Shown: in pieces, positions 26,741-55,460 of the stretch
How positions within the stretch are numbered: the first letter of the stretch is position 1
Layout of the letters: each line of letters begins with the position of its first letter
From: Oscillospiraceae bacterium
GTDB lineage: Bacteria > Bacillota > Clostridia > Oscillospirales > Oscillospiraceae
Assembly (NCBI GenBank): GCA_902787755.1
Contig: CADAHL010000017.1
Span: 1-55,961 of the forward strand
DNA length: 55,961 nucleotides
Reading direction: 5' to 3'
Program-made: the position numbers and the translations under genes
Notes under the pieces: generated by a model
Databases searched by the model: none
What the model was told of the DNA's origin: nothing
Seen by the model: the letters and a program-made list of their open reading frames with translations, nothing else

Positions 26741-26853
26741 AAGAGAAGAGAGAAGAGTGAAGAGATATTGGTTCCGCTTTGCGGATGGATCATGATTCAT
26801 CGCCGAAGGCGAACCCATAACGTTTCACTTTTCACTCTTCCCTTTTCCCTTCC
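26738..26853. repeat. Element A copy 2 (complete): inverted arms with three-hairpin core
   Basis: Purine arm 26738-26766 (AAAAGAGAAGAGAGAAGAG...), core 26768-26818, and complementary pyrimidine arm 26821-26853 (TTTCACTTTTCACTCTTCCC). The core holds TCCGCTTTGCGGA (26773-26785), ATGGATCATGATTCAT (26785-26800) and TCGCCGAAGGCGA (26800-26812), closed by TTGGTT / AACCCA. It starts within the LRR stop codon. Confidence 0.8.
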
Positions 26854-35881: not shown

Positions 35882-36421
35882 TCAGCTCAAAATCTCGTAG
35901 GCCGCGTCGAACTCCTCCCGGACCACGAAGTTGAAGTCCACGTCGGTGATCTGCCCAAGCTCGTCCCGGTCGATCCGATAGAAGACCAGCACCGCGTCCC
36001 CGGGGGCTGTGAGCCGGGTGCCCCAGAGCTGGGCGGAGAAGCAGCGCTCCGGATCGGCCTCGTTGAGGATCAGCCGCCCCCGGGCCAGAAGCCAGTCCAG
36101 CGCCTCCGGGCGGGGCTGACCCAGCTGCCAGGCGTCCAGGGTCTTCGGGATGGCCACGAAGCCCGTCTCCGTCTCCCGGTGGGTTTGCAGAAAGACCTCC
36201 CGACGGACGGGGTAGGGGAAGCCTCCCTGATCCAGCTTCACAAAGTCCCCGGGCTGAGCCAGTTCTCCGGGGCCCTCGCCGCTCTCCCGGGTGCGGACCC
36301 GGATCCCGCCATCGGGCTGGGGGACCAGCAGGCCCCGGGCGATCAGCTCCCACTCCAGGGGGCTTCCCTCGCCCAGACACAGGGCGGTCACCGGTCCGGC
36401 AGGACGCTTGCGTACCTTCAT
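35882..36421 (-). CDS. PGDYG-domain-like protein, partner of the RyR-domain protein
   Basis: 179 residues; start ATG at 36419-36421 inside the ATGA overlap with the upstream RyR gene. The middle part PGDFVKLDQGGFPYPVRREVF resembles the short PGDYG domain (G-D-[YF]-[LV]... P-V-x-x-x-x-F). The rest includes LEWELIARGLLVPQPDGG and a C-terminal DVDFNFVVREEFDAAYEIL. No membrane spans. The strict coupling suggests a complex with the RyR protein. The domain call is tentative; function is unknown. Confidence 0.55.
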   Translation of the reverse strand: MKVRKRPAGPVTALCLGEGSPLEWELIARGLLVPQPDGGIRVRTRESGEGPGELAQPGDFVKLDQGGFPYPVRREVFLQTHRETETGFVAIPKTLDAWQLGQPRPEALDWLLARGRLILNEADPERCFSAQLWGTRLTAPGDAVLVFYRIDRDELGQITDVDFNFVVREEFDAAYEILS

Positions 36422-38808
36422 GACTGCCCGCCTTTCTCCGGCCGGAGAACCTGCAGAACCAGATCCAGCCAGTACTCTCCCTCGTCGGCTCCGCATTCCG
36501 CCAGCAGGGGGAAGCGCTGCAGCAGCGTCTGGGCCGTTTCGTTTTCCCCAGCCACGTTCAGGCGCCGGGCCAGCTCCGGAAGCTCGGCCGCGGTAAGCCG
36601 AGGGCCGTTCTCCCCGTAGGGAGAATCATAGAGTTTCAGACCCAGGGGGGCGGGGGCGACCTCCGGATGCCGGAGCCGGGGCGGCGCTTCGCTTGGCCGG
36701 GGCGACGGAGCGGGCCGGGGCCCTTCCTCCGCCTGCTGACCCTTTTTCACCAGCGACCGCAGGTCGGACACATAGTCCAGCAGGTCCTTGTCGTCCTCGG
36801 TGTTGTTGTAATCCACGCACTCCACCAGACAGGGGTGAAGCCGGGCGGGGATGTTCTTGTAGGCGTAGAAGCACAGCTCCCGCCAGTCCTCCGGACGCAG
36901 GGAGCCGTCCCGGACCCGGCAGAGGGTCTCGTACAGCTTGGGCGGCCGGGAGAAGCCCAGGGAGCGCAGGAAGGCGCACCAGCGGCGGTGCTCCAGCCAG
37001 CGGAGCCGGTCCACCAGAGGCTGATCCAGGGGCTCCATGGCCTGCTGATAGGCCAGTTTCCTCTCCAGCTCGTCCCCGTCCCGGACCCCGGCGCAGTACA
37101 TCTTCACCGGGGTGTGGAAGGCCCGGGCCACCCGGGACCAGTCGTTGTACAGATCGTCCCGGGAGGCGCTCACGTCCTTCAGGGAGTGGAGCTCCGCCTC
37201 CCGGCCCCGGCGCTGCCGCAGCCGGACCAGGTCCGCGCCGTCCACCGCCACGCTCTCCCAGCGGAAGCGATCCTCCAGGGTGCCGAAGATCAGCATGTCG
37301 GGGCTGACCCGCGTCTCGTCCAGACGCCCATAGTCCCGGAACCGTTCGCTGACCACCCGGCTGGTATCGCTGTTCTGGACCAGCAGAGAGACGGTCTTCT
37401 TCCCCGGGTATTTCCCGGAGCCCTTCAGCAGGCTCAGAGTCCGGCGCAGCTCGTCGCCCAGGGCCACGTTCTCCTCGTCGCTGTCCCCCATGACCAGGAA
37501 GCGGCTGGCCTGGGCCAGACGGAAGGGCTCCTGACTGCCGTACTGGCAGACCCGCTCCGCCGTCAGCAGCTCCCGGATCGGCGCGGTCCGGGGATCGGCC
37601 TCCACAAAGCACAGGGAGGCGTAGATGGGGGAGGGGTCCTCTTTGCCGGGCCGCAGGCGCAGACACTCGTGGCCCGGCTTGCAGGAATCCAGCAGCTCCG
37701 GGCTGAAGCGCCGCAGGGCGGTGGCCAGCTCCGGCTCGTCCCCGTCGCCGGTCCCGGAGGGGGGATAGACCATGGCGATGCGCAGGGGGTGATCCAGCAT
37801 CTGGCCCTGCCAGAAGACGGTAGAGAACATCTCCCGGGCAAAGGGTCCCCGGCCGAAGATCACCACGTCCAGGCCCTGCCCCGGCTCCAGATCCCGGAAC
37901 AGGGGGGCCTCGTCCAGGTGCAGACAGCAGGCCGTGGCCTTGTCCCGCACCACCCGGACGGTGACCCGCTTGTCCCCCACCAGGGTATCATAGCGGTGCT
38001 TCACCGCCCGCACATTCTCCAGCGCCTCGCTGTGATCGGAAAAGAGGGTGATGACGCAGCCCCGCTCCGGCTTCCACCGGGGCCTGTCCGCCTGGAGAAG
38101 ACCCTCCAGGGCCACCAGGTTCCCCGCGTCGTCCAGCTCGCCGTCCGGCGTCTGGTCGATCAGGAAAAAGCAGCAGGCCCGGGAATACCGAAAGCCCCCG
38201 CAGTGCAGCAGATCCTCCTGCAGGCACACCGCGTGCAGGTCCTTGGCCTGCACCAGCAGCTCCGAATCCTCCTCGCCGCCGTCGGAATAGCAGTCGGTGA
38301 AGACGATGGCGGGGCGGCCGCGCCCGGCCTCCCGGTCCAGAATATCCCGGGCCAGGAGGATCGAGCGCTCGTTGAGCTCGGAGAAGATCATCAGCCGCCG
38401 GCGGCGCACCGCCAGCAGACGCAGCTCCGGAGAGATCCCGGCCAGCACGTCGTAGATGACCGCGCCGCCCACGATGGGCGCCACGGTAAAGACCACGGCC
38501 CGGTACCAGTAGAGGATCCCGGCCAGGATCCCGTCTCCGGCCCGGGGGCCGCCGGTGATGGCCTCATAGCCCGCGTCCAGAGAAAAGACCTGCATGGTGT
38601 CGATAAACACGCCGGAGGGGAAGAAGCGCTCCCCGTCGGCGGCCAGTCTGGCGCATTCCACCAGGAACACCGCCCCCACCACCGCCAGGGTCAGCCGCAG
38701 CAGCCTCCGGCTCAGCCGCTGCTGCCGGGACAGAAAGAAAAACCGCAGGATCCCCCAGCAGAACAGGGCCAGGGAACACAGATTCAAAAACAAGCTCCAC
38801 GGATGCAT
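36418..38808 (-). CDS. Membrane protein with two RCK/TrkA-N-like Rossmann regions and a C-terminal RyR domain
   Basis: 796 residues; GGGAGGAGG before the ATG. Three hydrophobic spans at about residues 6-26, 37-57 and 98-124 precede a cytoplasmic part. A first Rossmann-like region starts RRRLMIFSELNERSILLARD, a second LDVVIFGRGPFAREMFSTVF, as in RCK/TrkA-N gating domains. At about residues 590-680 a bacterial RyR domain is recognisable: RLRWLEHRRWCAFLRSLGF, a loop, then YKNIPARLHPCLVECVDYN (compare eH-x-R-W and L-H-P-x-L). The last 110 residues are Pro-rich then helical. RyR domains are thought to sense nucleotide ligands. Strong own promoter; operon with the PGDYG-like gene. Confidence 0.7.
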   Translation of the reverse strand: MHPWSLFLNLCSLALFCWGILRFFFLSRQQRLSRRLLRLTLAVVGAVFLVECARLAADGERFFPSGVFIDTMQVFSLDAGYEAITGGPRAGDGILAGILYWYRAVVFTVAPIVGGAVIYDVLAGISPELRLLAVRRRRLMIFSELNERSILLARDILDREAGRGRPAIVFTDCYSDGGEEDSELLVQAKDLHAVCLQEDLLHCGGFRYSRACCFFLIDQTPDGELDDAGNLVALEGLLQADRPRWKPERGCVITLFSDHSEALENVRAVKHRYDTLVGDKRVTVRVVRDKATACCLHLDEAPLFRDLEPGQGLDVVIFGRGPFAREMFSTVFWQGQMLDHPLRIAMVYPPSGTGDGDEPELATALRRFSPELLDSCKPGHECLRLRPGKEDPSPIYASLCFVEADPRTAPIRELLTAERVCQYGSQEPFRLAQASRFLVMGDSDEENVALGDELRRTLSLLKGSGKYPGKKTVSLLVQNSDTSRVVSERFRDYGRLDETRVSPDMLIFGTLEDRFRWESVAVDGADLVRLRQRRGREAELHSLKDVSASRDDLYNDWSRVARAFHTPVKMYCAGVRDGDELERKLAYQQAMEPLDQPLVDRLRWLEHRRWCAFLRSLGFSRPPKLYETLCRVRDGSLRPEDWRELCFYAYKNIPARLHPCLVECVDYNNTEDDKDLLDYVSDLRSLVKKGQQAEEGPRPAPSPRPSEAPPRLRHPEVAPAPLGLKLYDSPYGENGPRLTAAELPELARRLNVAGENETAQTLLQRFPLLAECGADEGEYWLDLVLQVLRPEKGGQS

Positions 38809-40164: not shown

Positions 40165-40193
40165 AGTATAGCACAGAGAAAAGGGGCTGTCAC
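40165..40193 (-). promoter_or_regulatory. nagB promoter
   Basis: Minus strand GTGACA (40193-40188), 17-base spacer, TATACT (40170-40165). The -35 box lies inside the terminator of the upstream sugar operon. Confidence 0.75.
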
Positions 40194-40220
40194 CAGATTT
40201 TTTCCGGCGACAGCCCGATT
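40181..40220 (-). terminator. Terminator of the sugar-catabolic operon
   Basis: Minus strand GGGCTGTC-GCCGG / CTGGT-GACAGCCC with an A-rich loop, followed by CTTTTC; it overlaps the nagB -35 region. Confidence 0.75.
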
Positions 40221-40240: not shown

Positions 40241-40921
40241 TTACAGCGACAGAACGAGGTTCTCTCCGGTGATGCCCACATAGGCGCCTTCCGCGGCCTG
40301 GGGGGAATCGGGGTGGCAGGTCAGCCACTTGTTGCGCATCCACAGCAGCTTTTCCTCGCCGTCGGCGCCGGTGTCCACCCCGTCGATGGGGGTGTTGGTA
40401 TCCTTCTCCAGCACGACCAGGCAGTTGAAGCCCCGGTCGGAGACCCGGCAGGGCGCGAAGTGCAGCACCAGAGGCAGCACCTCCACCGCCGTCATGGGCG
40501 GCAGATAGAAGCCCACCACGTCGCCGGAGTTCATGGCGCCGTCACGCAGGGTTTCCGGCAGGGCCAGCAGCAGCACCAGACCGGTGGTGGAGAAGTTCAC
40601 CTCGCTGCAGCGGTGGTATTCCATGGCGTTCAGGCAGTGGCCCTGACCGTTGCAGAAGCCGGCCTGCACCGGCATCATGCCGAAGGCCCGGCGGCGGAGA
40701 GAGGGCAGGGCGTCGGCGCCCTCCAGACCCTCCTCGGAGGGGAAGTATACGTTCCCGGATTGGGGGATGGCCACCTGGTCCAGGCGGCGGGCCAGATCGG
40801 CGGTCTCCCGATCGCTCAGGGGCAGGACCCGGCCGTAGGGGGCGAAGGCCGCGTCGCGCACGTCGTACAGGGGCAGGCGGGGGTTCTTCTCCCGCAGGGC
40901 TTCCAGAAGCTTGGTTTCCAA
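40241..40921 (-). CDS. DUF4867 family cupin-like protein (candidate sugar isomerase)
   Basis: 226 residues, last gene of the operon. The sequence fits DUF4867: AMEYHRCSEVNFSTTGLVLLL with Glu, His and Glu as possible metal ligands, GDVVGFYLPPMTAVEVLP and LVLHFAPCRV with another His, in a double-stranded beta-helix-like layout. As I recall, a DUF4867 protein was assigned as the sulfoquinovose isomerase in a Bacillus sulfoglycolytic cluster, which would fit the transketolase, RpiB and dehydrogenase genes upstream. Assignment here is by context; no activity motif proves the substrate. Confidence 0.7.
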   Translation of the reverse strand: METKLLEALREKNPRLPLYDVRDAAFAPYGRVLPLSDRETADLARRLDQVAIPQSGNVYFPSEEGLEGADALPSLRRRAFGMMPVQAGFCNGQGHCLNAMEYHRCSEVNFSTTGLVLLLALPETLRDGAMNSGDVVGFYLPPMTAVEVLPLVLHFAPCRVSDRGFNCLVVLEKDTNTPIDGVDTGADGEEKLLWMRNKWLTCHPDSPQAAEGAYVGITGENLVLSL

Positions 40922-40934
40922 TTTTTGTTCCTCC

Positions 40935-41840
40935 TTATGCTTTGCTTTCCTTATGCAGCTTTGCCCGCAGCAGGATCACCGCGGCGCCCGAGAGCACTAC
41001 CAGGATCCCCAGCAGCTTTTTGGCGGTCAGGGCCTCATCCAGGAAAAAGACCCCGATCAGGCAGCTGACCACCGGCATCAGCAGCAGGTACAGCTTCACC
41101 AGCCAGACCTCAAAGTGCTTCAGGTTGCGGTAATAGAAAAAGTAGATGCCGGTCTGGGCCAGACCGCCCAGAGCGGCCAGGAGCCAGAAGCGGGCGTCCG
41201 CGGGGAAGGCCGGGGCCTTCAGCTGGCCCGCGAGTCCCGCGCTGCAGCCGAACAGCAGCAGCACCACGAAGTTATTATAGTAGGAGATCATGTCCGAGTC
41301 CTCGTGGTACTTCTCCTGGGCGGTTTTGATAATAAAGGCGTTGGCGGTGACGCAGGCGGCGCTGAGCAGGAAAAACAGGTCCGTGGGATGGAACTCCATG
41401 CCGCCCAGCTCCACCCCCAGCACCAGCAGCACGCCCAGCAGCATGATCCCGGTGCCGATCCAGTCGGACAGATACAGCCGCTTGTGATAGACGATGACGG
41501 TGACCAGATTCACCATCAGCACGTCGGTCTTCAGCAGGGCCGTGCCGGTGGAGAGACTGCCCCCGGCGTAGCCCAGGTTGGCAAACAGGTCCAGCAGAAA
41601 GCCGAACAGGCCGATGAGCAGCAGGATCAACACCGCCTTGCCCTGGTGGAACAGCCGCCGAAAGCTGCCGTCCAGCAGCAGCTGCGCGGTCAGGAACACC
41701 AGAGCCGCCGAGCGCAGCAGAAAGCCCGCCAGCAGGGCCGAGCCGGTCCGGTCCACCAACACCTTGGACACGGCGTAGTACACCGACCAGCTCAGCACCA
41801 TCCCGGCCACCATCAGGATGTATTTCCGTTCGTCCTTCAT
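40935..41840 (-). CDS. DMT superfamily (EamA-type) transporter
   Basis: 301 residues with ten hydrophobic spans in two EamA halves (VYYAVSKVLVDRTGSALLAG in the first; LLAALGGLAQTGIYFFYY in the second). ATGA overlap with the dehydrogenase gene upstream (41837-41840) and 13 bases before DUF4867. In a sugar or sulfo-sugar operon it would import the substrate or export an end product such as dihydroxypropanesulfonate. The direction and substrate cannot be read from sequence. Confidence 0.88.
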   Translation of the reverse strand: MKDERKYILMVAGMVLSWSVYYAVSKVLVDRTGSALLAGFLLRSAALVFLTAQLLLDGSFRRLFHQGKAVLILLLIGLFGFLLDLFANLGYAGGSLSTGTALLKTDVLMVNLVTVIVYHKRLYLSDWIGTGIMLLGVLLVLGVELGGMEFHPTDLFFLLSAACVTANAFIIKTAQEKYHEDSDMISYYNNFVVLLLFGCSAGLAGQLKAPAFPADARFWLLAALGGLAQTGIYFFYYRNLKHFEVWLVKLYLLLMPVVSCLIGVFFLDEALTAKKLLGILVVLSGAAVILLRAKLHKESKA

Positions 41841-42937
41841 TGGAGCTTCAAAAACATCTCCCGCAGGGCGGCCTCATCCAGAGGCACCGGGTTGTTCTTC
41901 ATCAGGGGATGAGCGGCGCAGTCCCGGCAGAGCTTGTCCAGATCCACGTTCTCCAGCTGGCTGAGCCGGGTGCGCAGGCCGCCCAGCTCCTTCAGCTCCG
42001 CGATCCGCCGGGCCAGCTCCTCCGTGCCCGTGAGCCCCACGGCCCGGCACAGGGCCTCCAGCCGCTCGTCGGCGTTGATGCGCACCAGGCTGTCCAGGGT
42101 GAAGGCGCAGGCCTCCCCGTGGGGCAGGTGGTAGTCCTCGCTGAGGGGATAGCTGCAGGCGTGGCTGGCGGCGGTCTTGGGCAGGGCGAAGCTCAGTCCG
42201 CCCAGGAGCGCGGCATAGGCCATATTGGCCCGGGCCTCCCTGTCGCCGCCGTCCCGCCAGGCCCGCTCCAGGTTGGCCAGTACAAGGCCCACGGCCTCAA
42301 TGGCCATCAGGTCGGAGATGGGCTGATGGTTCCGGCTCCAGTAGCCCTCCAGGGCGTGGGCCAGGGCGTCCAGGCCGGTGTTCATGGTGGTCCGGGGCGG
42401 CACCGAGGCCGACAGCTCCGGGTCCACGATGGCGGCGGTGGGCATGAAGGCCGGGTTGTTGATGGTCTTCTTCTCGGTTCCGCGGCTGACCACGGACACC
42501 TGGGTCACCTCGCTGCCGGTGCCGGCGGTGGTGGGCACGGCCAGAATGGTCAGGCGGCTGCCGGCGTCAAAGCTCCGGCGGCCCTCGTAGTAGTCCAGGG
42601 CAGAGCCCGGGTTGGAGGAAACCGCCGCGGCAAACTTGGCGGTGTCCATGGCGCTGCCGCCGCCGATGCCGATGACGGCGTCGGCGCCGTGCTCCCGGCA
42701 CAGGGCCACGGTCTGCTCAATGCCGGAGAGCTGGGGGTTCTGCTCCACCCCGTCGAACAGGGCGGTGAGCCGGGGATCGGCCTGCATCAGGGCCTTCGCC
42801 CGGGGGGAGAAATGTTTTCCGCAGACCAGCACGGCGCTCCGGATCTTCATTTCGTCCAGGATCTGCCCCAGGCAGGAAAACTTTCCCTCCCCGAACCAGA
42901 TCTTCACCGGCTGGGAATAGACGAAGGACTCAGCCAT
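41837..42937 (-). CDS. Iron-containing alcohol dehydrogenase (candidate sulfolactaldehyde reductase)
   Basis: 366 residues, group III ADH fold. GIGGGSAMDTAKFAAA is the NAD-binding glycine motif, LAVPTTAGTGSEVTQVSVV the second, and the metal ligands are visible in GLDALAHALEGYW (Asp, His), ASHACSYPLSEDYHLPHGEA (two His). It overlaps the isomerase gene by 8 bases. In the proposed sulfo-transketolase route it would reduce 3-sulfolactaldehyde to 2,3-dihydroxypropane-1-sulfonate; a polyol or glycerol-type role is the alternative. Confidence 0.88.
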   Translation of the reverse strand: MAESFVYSQPVKIWFGEGKFSCLGQILDEMKIRSAVLVCGKHFSPRAKALMQADPRLTALFDGVEQNPQLSGIEQTVALCREHGADAVIGIGGGSAMDTAKFAAAVSSNPGSALDYYEGRRSFDAGSRLTILAVPTTAGTGSEVTQVSVVSRGTEKKTINNPAFMPTAAIVDPELSASVPPRTTMNTGLDALAHALEGYWSRNHQPISDLMAIEAVGLVLANLERAWRDGGDREARANMAYAALLGGLSFALPKTAASHACSYPLSEDYHLPHGEACAFTLDSLVRINADERLEALCRAVGLTGTEELARRIAELKELGGLRTRLSQLENVDLDKLCRDCAAHPLMKNNPVPLDEAALREMFLKLQ

Positions 42938-43403
42938 AGATCTTGTCCTCGATCTCGGAGACCTTCACGGCGAACTTGTGCATGTTGGCCGCCCGCCAGT
43001 CCTCCAGATCCTGGCACCACTGGGTGTTCAGGAAGGTCTTGACCATCTCCACGGCCATCTCGGGGCCAACGATCCAGCCGCCCATGCACAGGATGTTGGC
43101 GTTGTTGATGGCCCGGGCCATCTTGGCCGAGTACACGCCCTCGCAGGCCACGGCGTACACGCCCCTGTACTTGTTGGACACCACGCACATGCCCGCGCCG
43201 GTGCCGCAGATCAGCACGGCCTTGTCGTAAGTGCCGTTCTGCACCAGGGGGGCCACGGTATCGGCCACCTCGTAGTAGGGGTGGACATGATCCAGATCCA
43301 CGGTGCCCAGATCGTCAAATTCCACGCCGGTCTCCGTGAGCCAGGCCCGGATGGCCTCCTTGGCGGCAAAGCCGGACTTGTCGCTTCCAATGGCTATTTT
43401 CAT
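42930..43403 (-). CDS. RpiB/LacA/LacB family sugar-phosphate isomerase
   Basis: 157 residues; start ATG at 43401-43403 with AAAGGAG. The family motif ICGTGAGMCVVSNKYRGVYA holds the catalytic Cys; then EGVYSAKMARAINNANILCMGG. At the N-terminus the usual GSDHAG/GCDHVG is changed to GSDKSGFAAKE, with Lys for His. RpiB proteins interconvert ribose-5-P and ribulose-5-P, but in operons with a split transketolase they can act on four-carbon substrates such as 4-deoxy-4-sulfoerythrulose (SqwI). Coupled to the dehydrogenase gene. Confidence 0.88.
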   Translation of the reverse strand: MKIAIGSDKSGFAAKEAIRAWLTETGVEFDDLGTVDLDHVHPYYEVADTVAPLVQNGTYDKAVLICGTGAGMCVVSNKYRGVYAVACEGVYSAKMARAINNANILCMGGWIVGPEMAVEMVKTFLNTQWCQDLEDWRAANMHKFAVKVSEIEDKIYG

Positions 43404-43424
43404 AATCAATCTCCTTTCCATATT

Positions 43425-43540
43425 GGCCCCCTTGCCTAAAGGGGGCTCCCGCGAAGCGGGTGGGGGATACTCCTTTCCTTACAGGCCCACTTGGTATCCC
43501 CCCGGCCCTGCGGGCCACCCCCCTTTAGGCAAGGGGGGCT
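43425..43540. repeat. Element C copy 1: nested palindrome inside the sugar operon
   Basis: Outer arms GGCCCCCTTGCCTAAAGGGG (from 43425) and CCCCCCTTTAGGCAAGGGGG (from 43518) are complementary. Inside are CCCGCGAAGCGGG (43448-43460), an inner stem TGGGGGATAC / GTATCCCCC (43461-43470 with 43494-43502), and GGCCCTGCGGGCC (43504-43516). A diverged copy lies at 55632-55755. Confidence 0.8.
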
Positions 43541-43627
43541 TGCGGCACACACAGTCTTCGAAGGGGCGGAGGGGTTGCGCTGGGTTTGTATCCTGCCCTT
43601 TCCTTTTTGGCCCCCTGTTGGGGCGAT

Positions 43628-43742
43628 AAAAAGTGAAGAGTGAAGAGTGAAAAGTTATGGCATCGCCTTCGGCGATGGATTGGAATCCATGCCGCAAAGC
43701 GGCATACCACATCTCTTCACTCTTCTCTCTTACCTCTTCACT
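43628..43742. repeat. Element A copy 3 (complete)
   Basis: Purine arm 43628-43654 (AAAAAGTGAAGAGTGAAGAG...), hairpins TCGCCTTCGGCGA (43663-43675), ATGGATTGGAATCCAT (43675-43690) and TGCCGCAAAGCGGCA (43690-43704), and pyrimidine arm 43711-43742 (ATCTCTTCACTCTTCTCTCT...). It follows element C copy 1, so the 351-base gap between the transketolase and isomerase genes is repeats with about 85 bases of other sequence. Confidence 0.82.
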
Positions 43743-43754
43743 TGATTCCGAATT

Positions 43755-44678
43755 TTACTTCAGGCTCAGGGCCTCTCTGGCCTTGGCCAGCAGATCCTCC
43801 TGGGTCAGGCCCATGGCCTTGCGCAGATAGGGGGTCTTGCCCACCTCGCCGAAGCGATCCTGCACGCCGAAGGCCACCACGGGGACCTTCTCCCGGGCCA
43901 GAGCTTCCACAACGGCGGAGTGGAGGCCGCCGATGACGTTGTGGTTCTCCACGGTCAGCACCGCGCCGGTCTTCCGGGCGGAGGCGATGACGGTCTCCCG
44001 GTCGATGGGCTTGATGGTGTGGACGTTGATGACCTCGGCGTCAACGCCCTCGGCCTTCATAGTCTCGGCCAGATCCAGGCAGTCCTTGGTGAACATGCCG
44101 GAGACGAAGATCGAAAGATCCTTGCCCTCCCGCAGGGTGTCGGCCTTGAAGAGATCAAACTGGTAGTCCTCGGGGAAGACGACAGGCTGGACCTTGCGGA
44201 ACAGACGCATGTACACCGGGCCCTGATAGGCGCCCAGCACGGGCATGGCGGCGCGCAGCTGCACCTCGTCCACCGGCTCGAAGATGACGATGCCGGGGAT
44301 GGAGCGGACCACGCCGATGTCCTCCAGACTCATGTGGGTGCCGCCGTTGAGCTCGGCGGAGATGCCGGGGTCGGTGCCCACGATCTTCACGTTGGATTTG
44401 GCGTAGGAGATGGAGATGGCGATCTGGTCGCAGATGCGCCGGGTGGCGAAGGGCGTGAAGCTCTCGATCCAGGGCTTGAAGCCGTAACTTGAAAGCCCCG
44501 CGGCGATGGAGGCCATGTTCTGCTCGGCCACGCCGCAGTCAAACATCTGCCGGGGGAAGCGCTCGTACAGGTTCCGGGTGCCGCTGGCCTTGGAGAGGTC
44601 GGCGTCCAGGACGCAGACGTGCTTGTCCTGCTCCATCATCTCCGCCAGGCACTGGGCGTAAACAGCTCTCATTTCCAT
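43755..44678 (-). CDS. Transketolase, C-terminal (pyrimidine-binding/regulatory) subunit
   Basis: 307 residues. FDCGVAEQNMASIAAGLSSYG contains the conserved Glu that activates thiamine diphosphate; FTPFATRRICDQI, NVKIVGTDPGISAELNGGTH and the C-terminal VLTVENHNVIGGLHSAV are typical of split transketolases. It works as a heteromer with the N-terminal subunit encoded 3 bases upstream. In the sulfo-transketolase pathway this pair is SqwGH; in other operons such pairs act on apulose-4-phosphate or ordinary pentose phosphates. Confidence 0.92.
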   Translation of the reverse strand: MEMRAVYAQCLAEMMEQDKHVCVLDADLSKASGTRNLYERFPRQMFDCGVAEQNMASIAAGLSSYGFKPWIESFTPFATRRICDQIAISISYAKSNVKIVGTDPGISAELNGGTHMSLEDIGVVRSIPGIVIFEPVDEVQLRAAMPVLGAYQGPVYMRLFRKVQPVVFPEDYQFDLFKADTLREGKDLSIFVSGMFTKDCLDLAETMKAEGVDAEVINVHTIKPIDRETVIASARKTGAVLTVENHNVIGGLHSAVVEALAREKVPVVAFGVQDRFGEVGKTPYLRKAMGLTQEDLLAKAREALSLK

Positions 44679-44681
44679 GGT

Positions 44682-45509
44682 TTATGCCTCCCCTCTGATC
44701 TCGGCGATGGCGGCCTTGGCCTGCTCCTCGCTGATGTTGCAGTTGTGGTTGCCGGCGCCCAGATCCTCGATCCACTTCACGCCGCAGCCCTTTTTGGTGT
44801 TCAGGATCACCATGGTGGGCTTGCCGCCGCCAAGACCCAGCTTGGCGTGCTTGACGGCCTCGGAGACCAGCTCCACGTCGTTGCCGTCCTCCACGTCGAT
44901 CACGTTCCAGCCGAAGGCGGCCCATTTCTCCGCCAGGGGGGCCACGTCGTTGACCTGGGCCACGGGCCCGTCGATCTGCAGCTTGTTGTAGTCGGTGAAG
45001 GCAATCAGGTTGTCCAGACCCTTGGCCGCGGCGAACATGGCCGCCTCCCAGATCTGGCCCTCCTGACTCTCACCGTCGCCGATGATGGTGTAGATGGTGG
45101 CGCCGTCCTGCTCCAGCTTGCTGCCCAGTGCCACGCCCACCGCGCAGCTGAAGCCCTGGCCCAGAGAACCGGTGGTCATGTCGATGCCGGTGGTCAGATT
45201 CATGTCGCAGTGGCTGGGCAGATGGGTGCCGCCCTGGTTCAGGGTCAGAAGCTCGGCCTTGTCAAAGTAGCCCCGGTTGGCCAGCGTGGCGTACACTGCC
45301 GGGCCGGCATGGCCCTTGGAGCAGATCAGACGGTCCCGCCCGGGCATTTTGGGCTGTTTGGGGTCGATGTTCATCTCCTGGAAATACAGCACTGCCAGCA
45401 CTTCCACCACGGACAGGCAGCCGCCGATGTGGCCCACGCCCAGGTGGCCGATGGTGGTCATGATGTCGCAGCGGATGTCCTTGCAGATTTCTTTGAGATC
45501 GCAGTTCAA
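44682..45509 (-). CDS. Transketolase, N-terminal (thiamine diphosphate-binding) subunit
   Basis: 275 residues from a TTG at 45507-45509; AGGAGGG lies 7 bases upstream, and no ATG is near. GHAGPAVYATLANRGYF, TTGSLGQGFSCAVGVALG and the diphosphate/Mg motif GDGESQEGQIWEAAMFA ... FTDYNKLQIDG are all present. First gene of the operon, so the whole set is controlled from the promoter at 45552-45580. Substrate inferred from the operon, not from the motif. Confidence 0.93.
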   Translation of the reverse strand: MNCDLKEICKDIRCDIMTTIGHLGVGHIGGCLSVVEVLAVLYFQEMNIDPKQPKMPGRDRLICSKGHAGPAVYATLANRGYFDKAELLTLNQGGTHLPSHCDMNLTTGIDMTTGSLGQGFSCAVGVALGSKLEQDGATIYTIIGDGESQEGQIWEAAMFAAAKGLDNLIAFTDYNKLQIDGPVAQVNDVAPLAEKWAAFGWNVIDVEDGNDVELVSEAVKHAKLGLGGGKPTMVILNTKKGCGVKWIEDLGAGNHNCNISEEQAKAAIAEIRGEA

Positions 45510-45551
45510 TTCGCAACCCTCCTAAATATAATGTGCCGTGTCATCTCGTCA

Positions 45552-45580
45552 AGTTTAATCCCCCATACCCTCTTTGTCAA
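45552..45580 (-). promoter_or_regulatory. Promoter of the sugar-catabolic operon
   Basis: Minus strand TTGACA (45580-45575), 17-base spacer, TAAACT (45557-45552). It is divergent from, and 23 bases away from, the promoter of the isomerase-like gene, so one regulator could control both. Confidence 0.65.
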
Positions 45581-45603
45581 GGCGGGTTTTTCCTTTGCCG
45601 CGG

Positions 45604-45632
45604 TTGACAGAACCGGACCGGGAGATTATGAT
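45604..45632 (+). promoter_or_regulatory. Promoter of the L-fucose-isomerase-like gene
   Basis: TTGACA 45604-45609, 17-base spacer, TATGAT 45627-45632. ACGGAGGAA precedes the ATG at 45675. Confidence 0.88.
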
Positions 45633-45674
45633 ACTTGCCGACAGAAACCATTATCATACGGAGGAACCTGCAAA

Positions 45675-47037: not shown

Positions 47038-47157
47038 AAGGGAAGAGAGAAAAGCGAAAAGTGAAGAGTGATGGTGTCCCGCGAAGCGGGACGGATTCAA
47101 ATCCGTCGGCGGAGCCGACACCGCAATTCTTCACTATTCACTCTTCACTCTTCACTC
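47038..47157. repeat. Element A copy 4 (complete)
   Basis: Purine arm 47038-47070, hairpins GTCCCGCGAAGCGGGAC (47076-47092), CGGATTCAAATCCG (47092-47105), GTCGGCGGAGCCGAC (47105-47119), closing stem GGTGT / ACACC (47073-47077, 47118-47122), pyrimidine arm 47127-47156 (TTCTTCACTATTCACTCTTC...). Confidence 0.85.
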
Positions 47158-47182
47158 GCCATCGCGGTCCCGCCCGTTTTCG

Positions 47183-47547: not shown

Positions 47548-49443
47548 ATGGAAAAGGGGCAGGACCCCATTTTGATCCGGGCCGACACGGAAGAGGACCG
47601 GGAGGCGGCCAGAAAGCTGCTGGCGCTGTACCAGGCCCGGGAACCGGAAGAGGAACAGCCGCAGACGGCCTGGAGCCCCAGCAGCTATGCCGGGGCGTCC
47701 CTCATGCAGATCTCGGTGCTGGCCGGGGAGGGCGATCCCTACGCCATGCTGGCCTGCGCCCGGCGCTTTGCCGATTCCCTGTCCGCCCAGGACTGGGACG
47801 CCTCCCTGGGCTGGCTGCGGCTGGCGGCGGAGCGGCTGAAGGACCGGAGCGGGGATCAGAAGCTCCGGAAGGAGGCGGCGGATACCTGCGTGTTCCTGGG
47901 CAGCCGCTTTGAGGAGCTGGGCGAAGGGAAACGGGCCTTCGGCTGCTATCAGGCGGCGCTGGCCCTGGACGTGACCCGGGACGAGGCGGTGATCCGCTGC
48001 TATGAGGAGGGACTGGGCACAGAGCCCGATCCGGACAAGGTCCGGGAGCTTCGGGAGAAGCGGGCCCTCCGGGGCGGGATCCGGGAGCGCTTTGTCCGGG
48101 CGGAGGAATATCTGGCCAATTCCGACGGCGACCGGGCGGTAAGCTGGCTGCGGCTGAGCCTGGAGGCCGGGGACGCGGGCGACTCCGCCAATGTGGCGCT
48201 GCGCCGCTTCATCCGGGCCCTGCTGGGCCGGGTGGGCCAGGCGGACGAGCAGGGCCTGGTGCCTGACGAGCAGGAGGAGATCGAGGAGCTGGAGCTGCTG
48301 ATCAACAACGGCAGCGCCGAGGCGGCCTTCCTCCTGTCCAGAATGGCGGGCAGCGACGAGCGCCGGCGGGAACTGCTGATCCTGGGCTCCCGGGGCTGGC
48401 CCATGGAGATGGCCCAGCGCTGCCGGCAGGCCCTGGAGAAGCCGAAGGAGGACAAGCCCCCGGAGCCGGTGAAGGAGAAAAAGCCCCTGCTGCGCATCGA
48501 GAAGCTGCCCGAGGATCCGGAGGAGCGGAAGGCGGCCCTGGCCATCCGGCGGGACGTGCAGAGCATGCGCCTGCGGGCCTGGCGGGACTACCGCCGCCAG
48601 GAGCGACCCCTGGTCCAGACCTTCCTGTGCCTGGTGCTGCTGGTGCTGGCCCTGCTGCTGGGCCTGGGCATCGGCGACGCGAAAGTGACGGAATACGCCA
48701 AAACCGGCCATTATCAGGGCTTTTGCCAGCCCCAGGAGGGCAAGCTGCAGTATGTCTATCTGACGGCGGAGAAGCCGGACGAGCAGGGGGACATGCGCGC
48801 CACGCTGGAGATCCGGCCCTTCGACGGCGAGTTGGGAGAGAGCCAGTCCTACAGCGGCTATCTCTGCGTCCAGGGCGGCATCCCTGGCTTTTCCCTGATG
48901 ACCGCCGACGGGCTGCGGCAGATTTATACCATGGACGCGCAGCTGGACAATACTCTGGAGCTGAGCGCCTCCGGGGCGGCTATGGCCCGCTACCCGGAGC
49001 TGACGCTCTACCGGGACGGCAGCGACGAGCAGCGCCGCTGGAGCGGCGGCTTCGGCAGCCAGAGCGGCAATTACCTGACCCGGCAGCTGCCCGAGGAGGT
49101 GGACGGTCTGGATCCGATCTCTCCCGGCTCGCCCAACCTGGTGCAGCTCTGGAACGGCCGGACCTATTCCGGCGGCCTGGTGCTGGAGCCCGGCCGGGAC
49201 AGCGGCACCGCGGTCTATGAGCTGAACAGCCGCTATTCGGTCATGAGCCTGTGCTTCGGCGCTCTGAGCGAGGAGGGCTGGGGGACGGTCATCATCACAG
49301 CCGACGGCGAGACCCTGTTTGAGAGCCGGCTGAACCCGGGCGGCTTGGCCCAGCTTCAGAGCCTGGGGATCGCCGGGGCCGGAGAGATCAGCATTACGCT
49401 CAGCGGCAGCGAGCTTGCGCTGGCGGACCTGACAGTGAGGTGA
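47548..49443 (+). CDS. Membrane protein with cytoplasmic Sel1/TPR-like repeats and extracellular NPCBM-like domain
   Basis: 631 residues. Residues 1-290 are helical repeats of Sel1/TPR character (AGEGDPYAMLACARRFADSL, AFGCYQAALALDVTRDEAVI, AVSWLRLSLEAGDAGDSA). A basic, Lys/Pro/Glu-rich stretch and one span at about residues 354-374 follow. The outer part (375-631) ends in a beta-rich domain YELNSRYSVMSLCFGALS, TVIITADGETLFESRLNPGG, like the NPCBM carbohydrate-binding module. It may link a cell-surface glycan signal to a cytoplasmic repeat scaffold. The domain names are my assignment; no enzyme motif is present. Confidence 0.62.
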   Translation: MEKGQDPILIRADTEEDREAARKLLALYQAREPEEEQPQTAWSPSSYAGASLMQISVLAGEGDPYAMLACARRFADSLSAQDWDASLGWLRLAAERLKDRSGDQKLRKEAADTCVFLGSRFEELGEGKRAFGCYQAALALDVTRDEAVIRCYEEGLGTEPDPDKVRELREKRALRGGIRERFVRAEEYLANSDGDRAVSWLRLSLEAGDAGDSANVALRRFIRALLGRVGQADEQGLVPDEQEEIEELELLINNGSAEAAFLLSRMAGSDERRRELLILGSRGWPMEMAQRCRQALEKPKEDKPPEPVKEKKPLLRIEKLPEDPEERKAALAIRRDVQSMRLRAWRDYRRQERPLVQTFLCLVLLVLALLLGLGIGDAKVTEYAKTGHYQGFCQPQEGKLQYVYLTAEKPDEQGDMRATLEIRPFDGELGESQSYSGYLCVQGGIPGFSLMTADGLRQIYTMDAQLDNTLELSASGAAMARYPELTLYRDGSDEQRRWSGGFGSQSGNYLTRQLPEEVDGLDPISPGSPNLVQLWNGRTYSGGLVLEPGRDSGTAVYELNSRYSVMSLCFGALSEEGWGTVIITADGETLFESRLNPGGLAQLQSLGIAGAGEISITLSGSELALADLTVR

Positions 49444-55375: not shown

Positions 55376-55460
55376 AGAGGGAAAAGGGAAGAGAGAAAAG
55401 TGAAGAGTGGATAGTTGCGGTGTCGGCTTCGCCGACGGATTCAAATCCATGCCGCGGAAC
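55376..55460. repeat. Element A copy 5 (truncated)
   Basis: Purine arm 55376-55410, hairpins GTCGGCTTCGCCGAC (55422-55436) and GGATTCAAATCC (55437-55448), then only half of a third hairpin (ATGCCGCGGAAC) and no pyrimidine arm. Confidence 0.75.

Follow-up and report, generated by a model that had tools for sequence, protein, structure and literature searches.

A stretch of 55,961 nucleotides from an uncultured gut Oscillospiraceae bacterium, one of a kind known chiefly from ruminants (contig CADAHL010000017.1 of assembly GCA_902787755.1; hereafter the window) carries a six-gene minus-strand operon and, divergent from it, a seventh gene, which together very probably constitute a sulfo-transketolase (sulfo-TK) module converting sulfoquinovose (SQ) to isethionate. 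This reading is supported by the SQ isomerase relative that stands next to the operon, by a YihQ sulfoquinovosidase encoded elsewhere in the genome, by residue tests of the operon enzymes, and by conserved synteny among related loci. SQ is a very abundant plant sulfosugar, and the sulfonates that arise from its fermentation feed hydrogen sulfide formation in the gut, isethionate being convertible to hydrogen sulfide by other microbes. An earlier reading of the window from its letters alone (the sequence-only reading) had recognized a sulfo-TK enzyme set and named dihydroxypropanesulfonate (DHPS) as its product. The first part of that claim stands; the product expected here is isethionate, which corrects the predicted cross-feeding product for this lineage.

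Predicted pathway and product

YihQ would release SQ and a GPH symporter would take it up; both proteins are encoded on other contigs. The divergent isomerase would convert SQ to 6-deoxy-6-sulfofructose (SF), with the DUF4867 protein perhaps aiding ring opening during the isomerization, and the split transketolase would transfer a C2 unit from SF to glyceraldehyde-3-phosphate, yielding xylulose-5-phosphate and sulfoerythrose. Conversion of sulfoerythrose to sulfoerythrulose may be assigned to the RpiB-like enzyme, after which the same transketolase could cleave sulfoerythrulose to sulfoacetaldehyde with formation of more xylulose-5-phosphate. The metal-dependent alcohol dehydrogenase (ADH) would then convert sulfoacetaldehyde to isethionate, which the EamA protein would probably export.

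In the sulfo-TK route, the C2 compound is sulfoacetaldehyde, reduced by SqwF to isethionate, while sulfolactaldehyde and DHPS belong to the sulfo-transaldolase (sulfo-TAL) and sulfo-Embden-Meyerhof-Parnas (sulfo-EMP) routes (PMC12890257, PMC9594981). The sequence-only reading had taken SqwF for a sulfolactaldehyde reductase, which these sources contradict, and had given the name SqwD to the SQ isomerase; that isomerase is SqvD/SftI, and SqwD is a CoA-acylating sulfoacetaldehyde dehydrogenase of another variant (PMC12890257, PMC9594981, PMC11659671). The sulfite/sulfonate transporter SqwE is not in the cluster, where an EamA gene stands instead (no search for a TauE-type exporter was made in the rest of the genome). 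Since sulfo-TK members without SqwE are described in the literature excerpts, SqwE is not a core feature of the route.

Predicted sulfoquinovose isomerase and sulfoquinovosidase

The sequence-only reading confined the enzyme set to the six operon genes and overlooked the first enzyme of the pathway. The sole NCBIfam match of the divergent gene is NF048012, sulfoquinovose isomerase SftI (372 bits, E 4e-111), and its sole Pfam match is Fucose_iso_C (PF02952). A structure model (mean predicted local distance difference test score, pLDDT, 80; built from 8 sequences) finds its best folds in the Protein Data Bank (PDB) among L-arabinose and L-fucose isomerases, at a template modeling (TM) score of about 0.7; the sequence itself has no PDB match at E 0.01. 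By its model match, the predicted product is a relative of the SQ isomerase SftI.

The remaining SQ functions are distributed across the window's genome (G000; 2.54 Mb, assembly 92% complete). The sequence-only reading had seen no sulfoquinovosidase in the window and proposed looking for one of the GH31 type in the genome. All three GH31 places of G000 do lie on contigs other than that of the operon, and one of them encodes YihQ (G000:C26:22460-24433, L064), scoring 608 bits against an NCBIfam cut-off of 553, with YihQ 5aed (412 bits) and SftG 6pnr as its best solved relatives. An intact GPH symporter of 469 aa, a candidate SQ importer, is encoded on contig C24 and is 80% identical to one that is cluster-linked in 20 of the 52 loci longer than 15 kb. 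The SQ genes of this assembly are thus spread over three contigs. On contig C26, apart from the SQ operon, yihQ stands divergently next to enolase.

Residue tests of the operon enzymes

Ordinary transketolases carry the residues RSFHR where sulfofructose transketolases carry RAFDR (Borusak et al., PMC11659671). The C half encoded in the window has RAFDR (R4, A31, F74, D103, R161), as do 78 of 80 cluster copies (72/80 distinct), the other two having KSFDR; these copies include loci fetched twice from one contig, for example L201/L154 and L066/L090. In a chosen subset of 22 of the transketolase paralogues found, one carries the full motif. RAFDR is not exclusive to SQ clusters, occurring also in L178 and in three of the five orphan transketolase pairs described below. 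The transketolase of L199, read separately from the 80-copy set, carries it as well.

In the RpiB-like protein, the histidine of the SDH motif is replaced by lysine in all 72 aligned rows (69 distinct), and the second histidine (H-N/D-A-N motif) by isoleucine in 71 and valine in one, the cysteine being retained throughout; the rows include the window, L071, L073, L199 and L201. The window's protein has lysine and isoleucine at the two sites, whereas the other RpiB of the genome (G000:C28) has both histidines. Among solved structures, the RpiB-like protein comes closest to ordinary RpiB enzymes, and the two transketolase halves score best against NCBIfam models of ordinary transketolases, with every score below its cut-off. 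On the surface, then, two proteins have ordinary pentose enzymes as nearest relatives, an outcome that the sequence-only reading had named as counting against it; the match is qualified because the substrate-site residues of both proteins differ from those of the ordinary enzymes.

The best PDB match of the ADH is 6jko (251 bits, the next at 158), which is listed as a methanol dehydrogenase and is the sulfoacetaldehyde reductase BkTauF (PMC6616044). D192, F252, T257, H261 and H275 of BkTauF are kept; Q196 is replaced by His and F265 by Tyr, and both replacements also occur in TauF homologs (PMC6616044). The ADHs of L071, L073 and L199 agree with that of the window at the TauF sites; at T257 and F265, two unrelated ADHs carry other residues. 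By its predicted active-site residues, the operon ADH therefore qualifies as a putative sulfoacetaldehyde reductase. The best-scoring NCBIfam model for the ADH is PsrA (TIGR03405) and the second-best for EamA is TIGR03340, both phosphonate utilization models and both far under cut-off; from these matches, a parallel handling of phosphonoacetaldehyde and sulfoacetaldehyde is possible.

The DUF4867 protein matches 9gyy at 168 bits and keeps all four metal ligands (E97, H99, E103, H150). Its role as a ring-opening helper is still a proposal, because the E. rectale member gave no detectable mutarotase or kinase activity (PMC11968277). All seven genes are under purifying selection, with ratios of nonsynonymous to synonymous substitution (dN/dS) of 0.07-0.47 against four relatives (three for DUF4867).

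Conserved synteny and co-occurrence

The related loci are the best 80 of at least 505 genome-collection stretches that encode a relative of the isomerase. All derive from uncultured bacteria or metagenome-assembled genomes (MAGs); a ruminant is named for 20, RUG/RUI labels, which we take to be rumen assemblies, appear on 39, and 21 have neither. Counting copies that cover >80% of the query, in loci of which many are cut by contig ends, the isomerase is present in 79, transketolase N in 77, transketolase C in 70, the RpiB-like gene in 67, the ADH in 59 and EamA in 54. The isomerase and these five operon genes occur together in 53 of the 80, and all 53 keep one gene order and orientation. Of two YihQ types, that of the window is found in 26 loci and the other in 27, one or the other lying within the fetched stretch in 51/80.

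Within the genus, isomerase and YihQ co-occur. Across 57 genomes, isomerase and YihQ are both present in 32, the isomerase alone in four, YihQ alone in none, and neither in 21 (p 6e-12); put differently, YihQ occurs in 32/36 isomerase-bearing and 0/21 isomerase-free genomes. Across 91 genomes, isomerase and transketolase are both present in 54 and both absent in 25, with six genomes carrying only one and six only the other (p 2e-11). These p values are nominal, because the genomes are related, and the presence table, compiled by hand, makes no correction for fragments or incomplete assemblies.

Beyond the genus, few genomes have a close isomerase (E up to 1e-60): 4/391 in the class and 9/394 in the order, with the window's own excluded. 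Nine of these 13 loci are sulfo-TAL clusters with SftT- and SftF-like genes (L197, L198, L203-L209); the other four comprise the bifurcated L199, L201 of the window's type, L202, which is cut at a contig end, and the distant L200. A search for more canonical clusters among 196 relatives of genome G257 returned G257 alone at E 1e-120, and the TK set was not found in the fetched stretches (5.6 to 19.9 kb) of five phylum-level matches.

Weighing the sulfo-TK reading

Several observations weigh against assigning the cluster to sulfo-TK. The isomerase scores 372 bits where the curated cut-off of NF048012 is 700, and the comparison with the enzymes of Clostridium sp. MSTE9 is one of published descriptions. 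Against L199, a canonical-type bifurcated cluster, identity is 32% for the ADH, 55% for transketolase N and 45% for C, and the window's DUF4867 is only 31-37% identical to those of sulfo-TAL clusters; DUF4867 is found in 30 of the best 80 loci, many of them cut. Co-occurrence is imperfect: six of 91 same-genus genomes have the transketolase C half and no close isomerase, another six have the isomerase and no close transketolase (G067 and G071 among them carrying a divergent set), and G091 and G115, two of 35 order-level genomes, match YihQ but lack a close SQ isomerase. The His-to-Asp change of the transketolase is also widespread in paralogs outside SQ clusters, and the Lys/Ile replacements of the RpiB-like protein are found in such paralogs too. 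The SftI cut-off was dropped as a decisive test, since the isomerases of two sulfo-TAL clusters (415 and 408 bits) also fall below it, and the His-to-Asp change was rejected as a stand-alone sulfo marker, being found in many transketolase paralogs. Nor are Lys/Ile sufficient evidence for a sulfo role, because L167 (genome G089) holds a transketolase pair and an RpiB-like gene with the same replacements, and its fetched 3.4 kb show no SQ gene. No close SQ isomerase was found in G089, and the L167 set perhaps serves a different pathway acting on a non-phosphorylated sugar.

A phosphorylated pentose, tetrose or apiose pathway would also employ a split transketolase and an RpiB-family isomerase. 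A near-identical Pfam set is labeled pentose phosphate in 8/14 members of one DUF4867 network cluster (PMC11968277), and the RpiB-like protein scores 101 bits with the erythrulose-4-phosphate isomerase model, whose cut-off is 240. Yet no kinase is encoded in the operon or by the divergent gene, an SftI-like isomerase adjoins, YihQ co-occurs, and two RpiB histidines are replaced while an ordinary RpiB exists elsewhere in the genome; such a pathway is highly improbable here. The apiose, ribitol and tetrose versions were rejected for the lack of a kinase in the cluster and the SftI-like isomerase next door, and an ordinary pentose-phosphate set because the genome encodes a separate RpiB and a further split transketolase. 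In the same network cluster of 14 members, the neighbor families are those of the window's operon minus the isomerase, and it may be worth a second look as sulfo-TK (PMC11968277).

The remaining alternatives accept the sulfo-TK enzymes and dispute the product. That the main product could be DHPS or sulfolactate, through a sulfolactaldehyde branch, is suggested by the bifurcated TK/TAL clusters known in Faecalicatena (PMC11659671) and by the SftT-like gene next to the TK set in L199. The search of the window's 92% complete assembly, however, returned no TAL_FSA (PF00923) match, where a control finds the family in 10/14 genomes, and sulfoacetaldehyde reductase is the closest match of the operon ADH. 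The branch would need a transaldolase encoded among the sequences absent from the assembly, and its likelihood is very slim; a sulfo-TAL pathway proper was rejected on the same absence. A variant ending in sulfoacetate, of the SqwD/SqwKL type, is known in other bacteria (PMC12890257, PMC9594981), and some relatives' loci have the RpiB-like gene without the ADH. With TauF residues in the operon ADH, and neither an aldehyde dehydrogenase nor a CoA ligase in the operon, the chance of this ending is close to negligible. Conversion of SQ to isethionate by sulfo-TK is the reading that we retain.

Transketolase phylogeny and a possible repeated origin

When the two transketolase subunits of each of 39 loci are joined and placed in one tree, pairs of the window's type form one clade with the orphan pairs (support 100/100), and the pairs of L199 and L071/L073 fall in another branch together with paralogs (95/96). 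Approximately unbiased (AU) tests reject a single clade of all sulfo-TK pairs and orphans (p 5.6e-5; p 0.006 without the two motif columns), as well as groupings of the window's type with L071/L073 (p 2.3e-4) and of L199 with L071/L073 (p 0.006). The full RAFDR motif requires five changes on the tree. It is possible, therefore, that SF transketolase activity arose at least twice, the window's pair deriving from another split-transketolase lineage than those of L199 and L071/L073 and converging on RAFDR. We hold the chance of this at somewhat short of even, because the groups for the AU tests were chosen once a first FastTree tree had been inspected, the tree lacks the Clostridium sp. MSTE9 reference, and loss of function in the intervening paralogs may account for the same pattern, gain and loss not being separable on the tree. 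A limited literature search found nothing on a repeated origin of the sulfo-TK transketolase, and the word "convergent" does not occur in the available part of PMC13219744. If the transketolases are polyphyletic, sulfo-TK annotation by transketolase homology alone would miss or misplace members, and RAFDR would become a motif on which a recurrent shift from recognizing phosphate to recognizing sulfonate can be tested.

Other transketolase pairs were seen in the genus. The orphan pairs (L074, L075, L076, L077, L078), from five same-genus genomes, are 70-86% identical to that of the window, lack the rest of the pathway, and have RAFDR in three cases and RSFDR in two. No sugar pathway is evident nearby from open reading frames (ORFs) read by eye, the flanks not having been searched against families. 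A sixth case, G002, is a contig-end fragment of a transketolase C half. Genomes G067 and G071, of the same genus, carry another TK/RpiB/ADH set (L071, L072, L073), with a C half 47-48%, RpiB 55% and ADH 40% identical to those of the window (L071/L073 type); here the other transketolase lineage is paired with the same SQ isomerase family (65-66%). Next to the sulfo-TK cluster, on the other strand, L109, L127 and L157 carry a further transketolase pair that is divergent and has the motif KCFDR.

Operon layout

A Pfam search of the window confirmed the six genes at 40241-45509 and their families as the sequence-only reading had named them (Table 1). The spacings from transketolase N to DUF4867 are +3, +333, -8, -4 and +13 bases, in agreement with its description of gaps under 15 bases apart from one filled with repeats. 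The operon promoter that it had placed was also found, together with a second, divergent one, the two pointing away from each other; promoter-like sites exceed chance in the window (9 observed against 0.7 in shuffles). A terminator-like hairpin was likewise found where it had proposed a terminator, but such sites are not above chance (3 against 4.7). For the RpiB-like protein, the probable start is 43403, preceded by AGGAGA; nine of 11 homologs are 157-158 aa long.

Table 1. The predicted module and adjoining elements in the window.
Feature	Position	Strand	Evidence
Predicted SQ isomerase (SqvD/SftI-like, fucose/arabinose-isomerase fold), 446 aa	45675..47015	+	NF048012, PF02952
Predicted SF transketolase subunit, thiamine diphosphate (ThDP)-binding N half (SqwG-like), TTG start after AGGAGG	44682..45509	-	PF00456
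Predicted SF transketolase subunit, C half (SqwH-like), RAFDR head-group motif	43755..44678	-	PF02779, PF02780
LacAB/RpiB-like isomerase, likely start 43403	42930..43421	-	PF02502
Putative sulfoacetaldehyde reductase (SqwF role; metal-dependent ADH, Fe-ADH, BkTauF-like)	41837..42937	-	best PDB match 6jko
EamA/DMT transporter, proposed isethionate exporter (SqwE role)	40935..41840	-	PF00892
DUF4867 protein (SqvB/SftX-like cupin), proposed SQ/SF ring-opening or mutarotase aid	40241..40921	-	PF16161, 205 bits
Divergent promoter region, 165 bp, between isomerase and operon	45510..45674	.	
Sigma-70-like promoter TTGACA-17-TATGAT, 11/12 consensus positions	45604-45632	+	motif scan
Sigma-70-like promoter TTGACA-17-TAAACT, 10/12 consensus positions	45580-45552	-	motif scan
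Two hairpin elements (genome-wide repeat) filling gap, outside pathway	43422..43754	.	
Terminator-like hairpin 3' of DUF4867	40184..40216	-	number of such sites not above shuffled expectation

The 333-base gap separates the RpiB-like gene from the transketolase C half. Scoring of 40 out of 102 candidate places in the genome gave 60 matches to its sequence, some representing both strands of one palindrome. Most of the matches fall on one of the two elements, the second in the gap, which is a hairpin intergenic element with GTGAAGAG arms noted at 43424-43752 and also at 47038-47160, 26741-26846 and 55389-55455; another hairpin type, with CCCCCTTGCCTAAAGGGGG arms, adjoins it. The large flanking proteins at 36418-38808 and 47548-49443 (796 and 631 aa) have no Pfam match at E 0.001.

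Comparison with known systems

Sulfo-TAL clusters of the E. rectale type (L197, L198, L203-L209) share with the window an SQ isomerase at 57-63% identity; YihQ is present in all nine and DUF4867 in eight, none being seen in L197. In place of the window's TK, SqwI and SqwF, they have an SftT-like transaldolase and an SftF-like reductase. BkTauF (6jko) shares active-site residues with the window's ADH, whereas its proposed role in taurine nitrogen assimilation belongs to another pathway (PMC6616044).

L199 resembles the bifurcated sulfo-TK/TAL cluster of Faecalicatena sp. DSM22707 (PMC11659671). The window shares with this type the SQ isomerase, a split transketolase with RAFDR, SqwI (the L199 RpiB-like protein is 44% identical to that of the window) and a metal-dependent ADH, and differs in that no transaldolase was found in its genome. 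The sulfo-TK pathway of Clostridium sp. MSTE9 (PMC9594981, PMC12890257, PMC11659671), likened by description, has the same reactions and enzyme families, with the sulfite/sulfonate transporter SqwE as its exporter where the window has EamA.

The nearest counterpart is that of Candidatus Limivicinus sp900317375, an Oscillospiraceae member from cow rumen whose isethionate-producing sulfo-TK is transcribed in microcosms (PMC13219744, published 2026). The likeness, drawn by description, extends to rumen Oscillospiraceae and to an isethionate-producing sulfo-TK. According to the same source, 35.5% of 313 Candidatus Limivicinus genomes have sulfo-TK capacity, and some species have two yihQ copies. 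From the habitat of the relatives, the family names and the many genomes, the window's genus is probably Candidatus Limivicinus. The pathway itself is thus already described (PMC13219744), and the cluster in the window adds a member to it.

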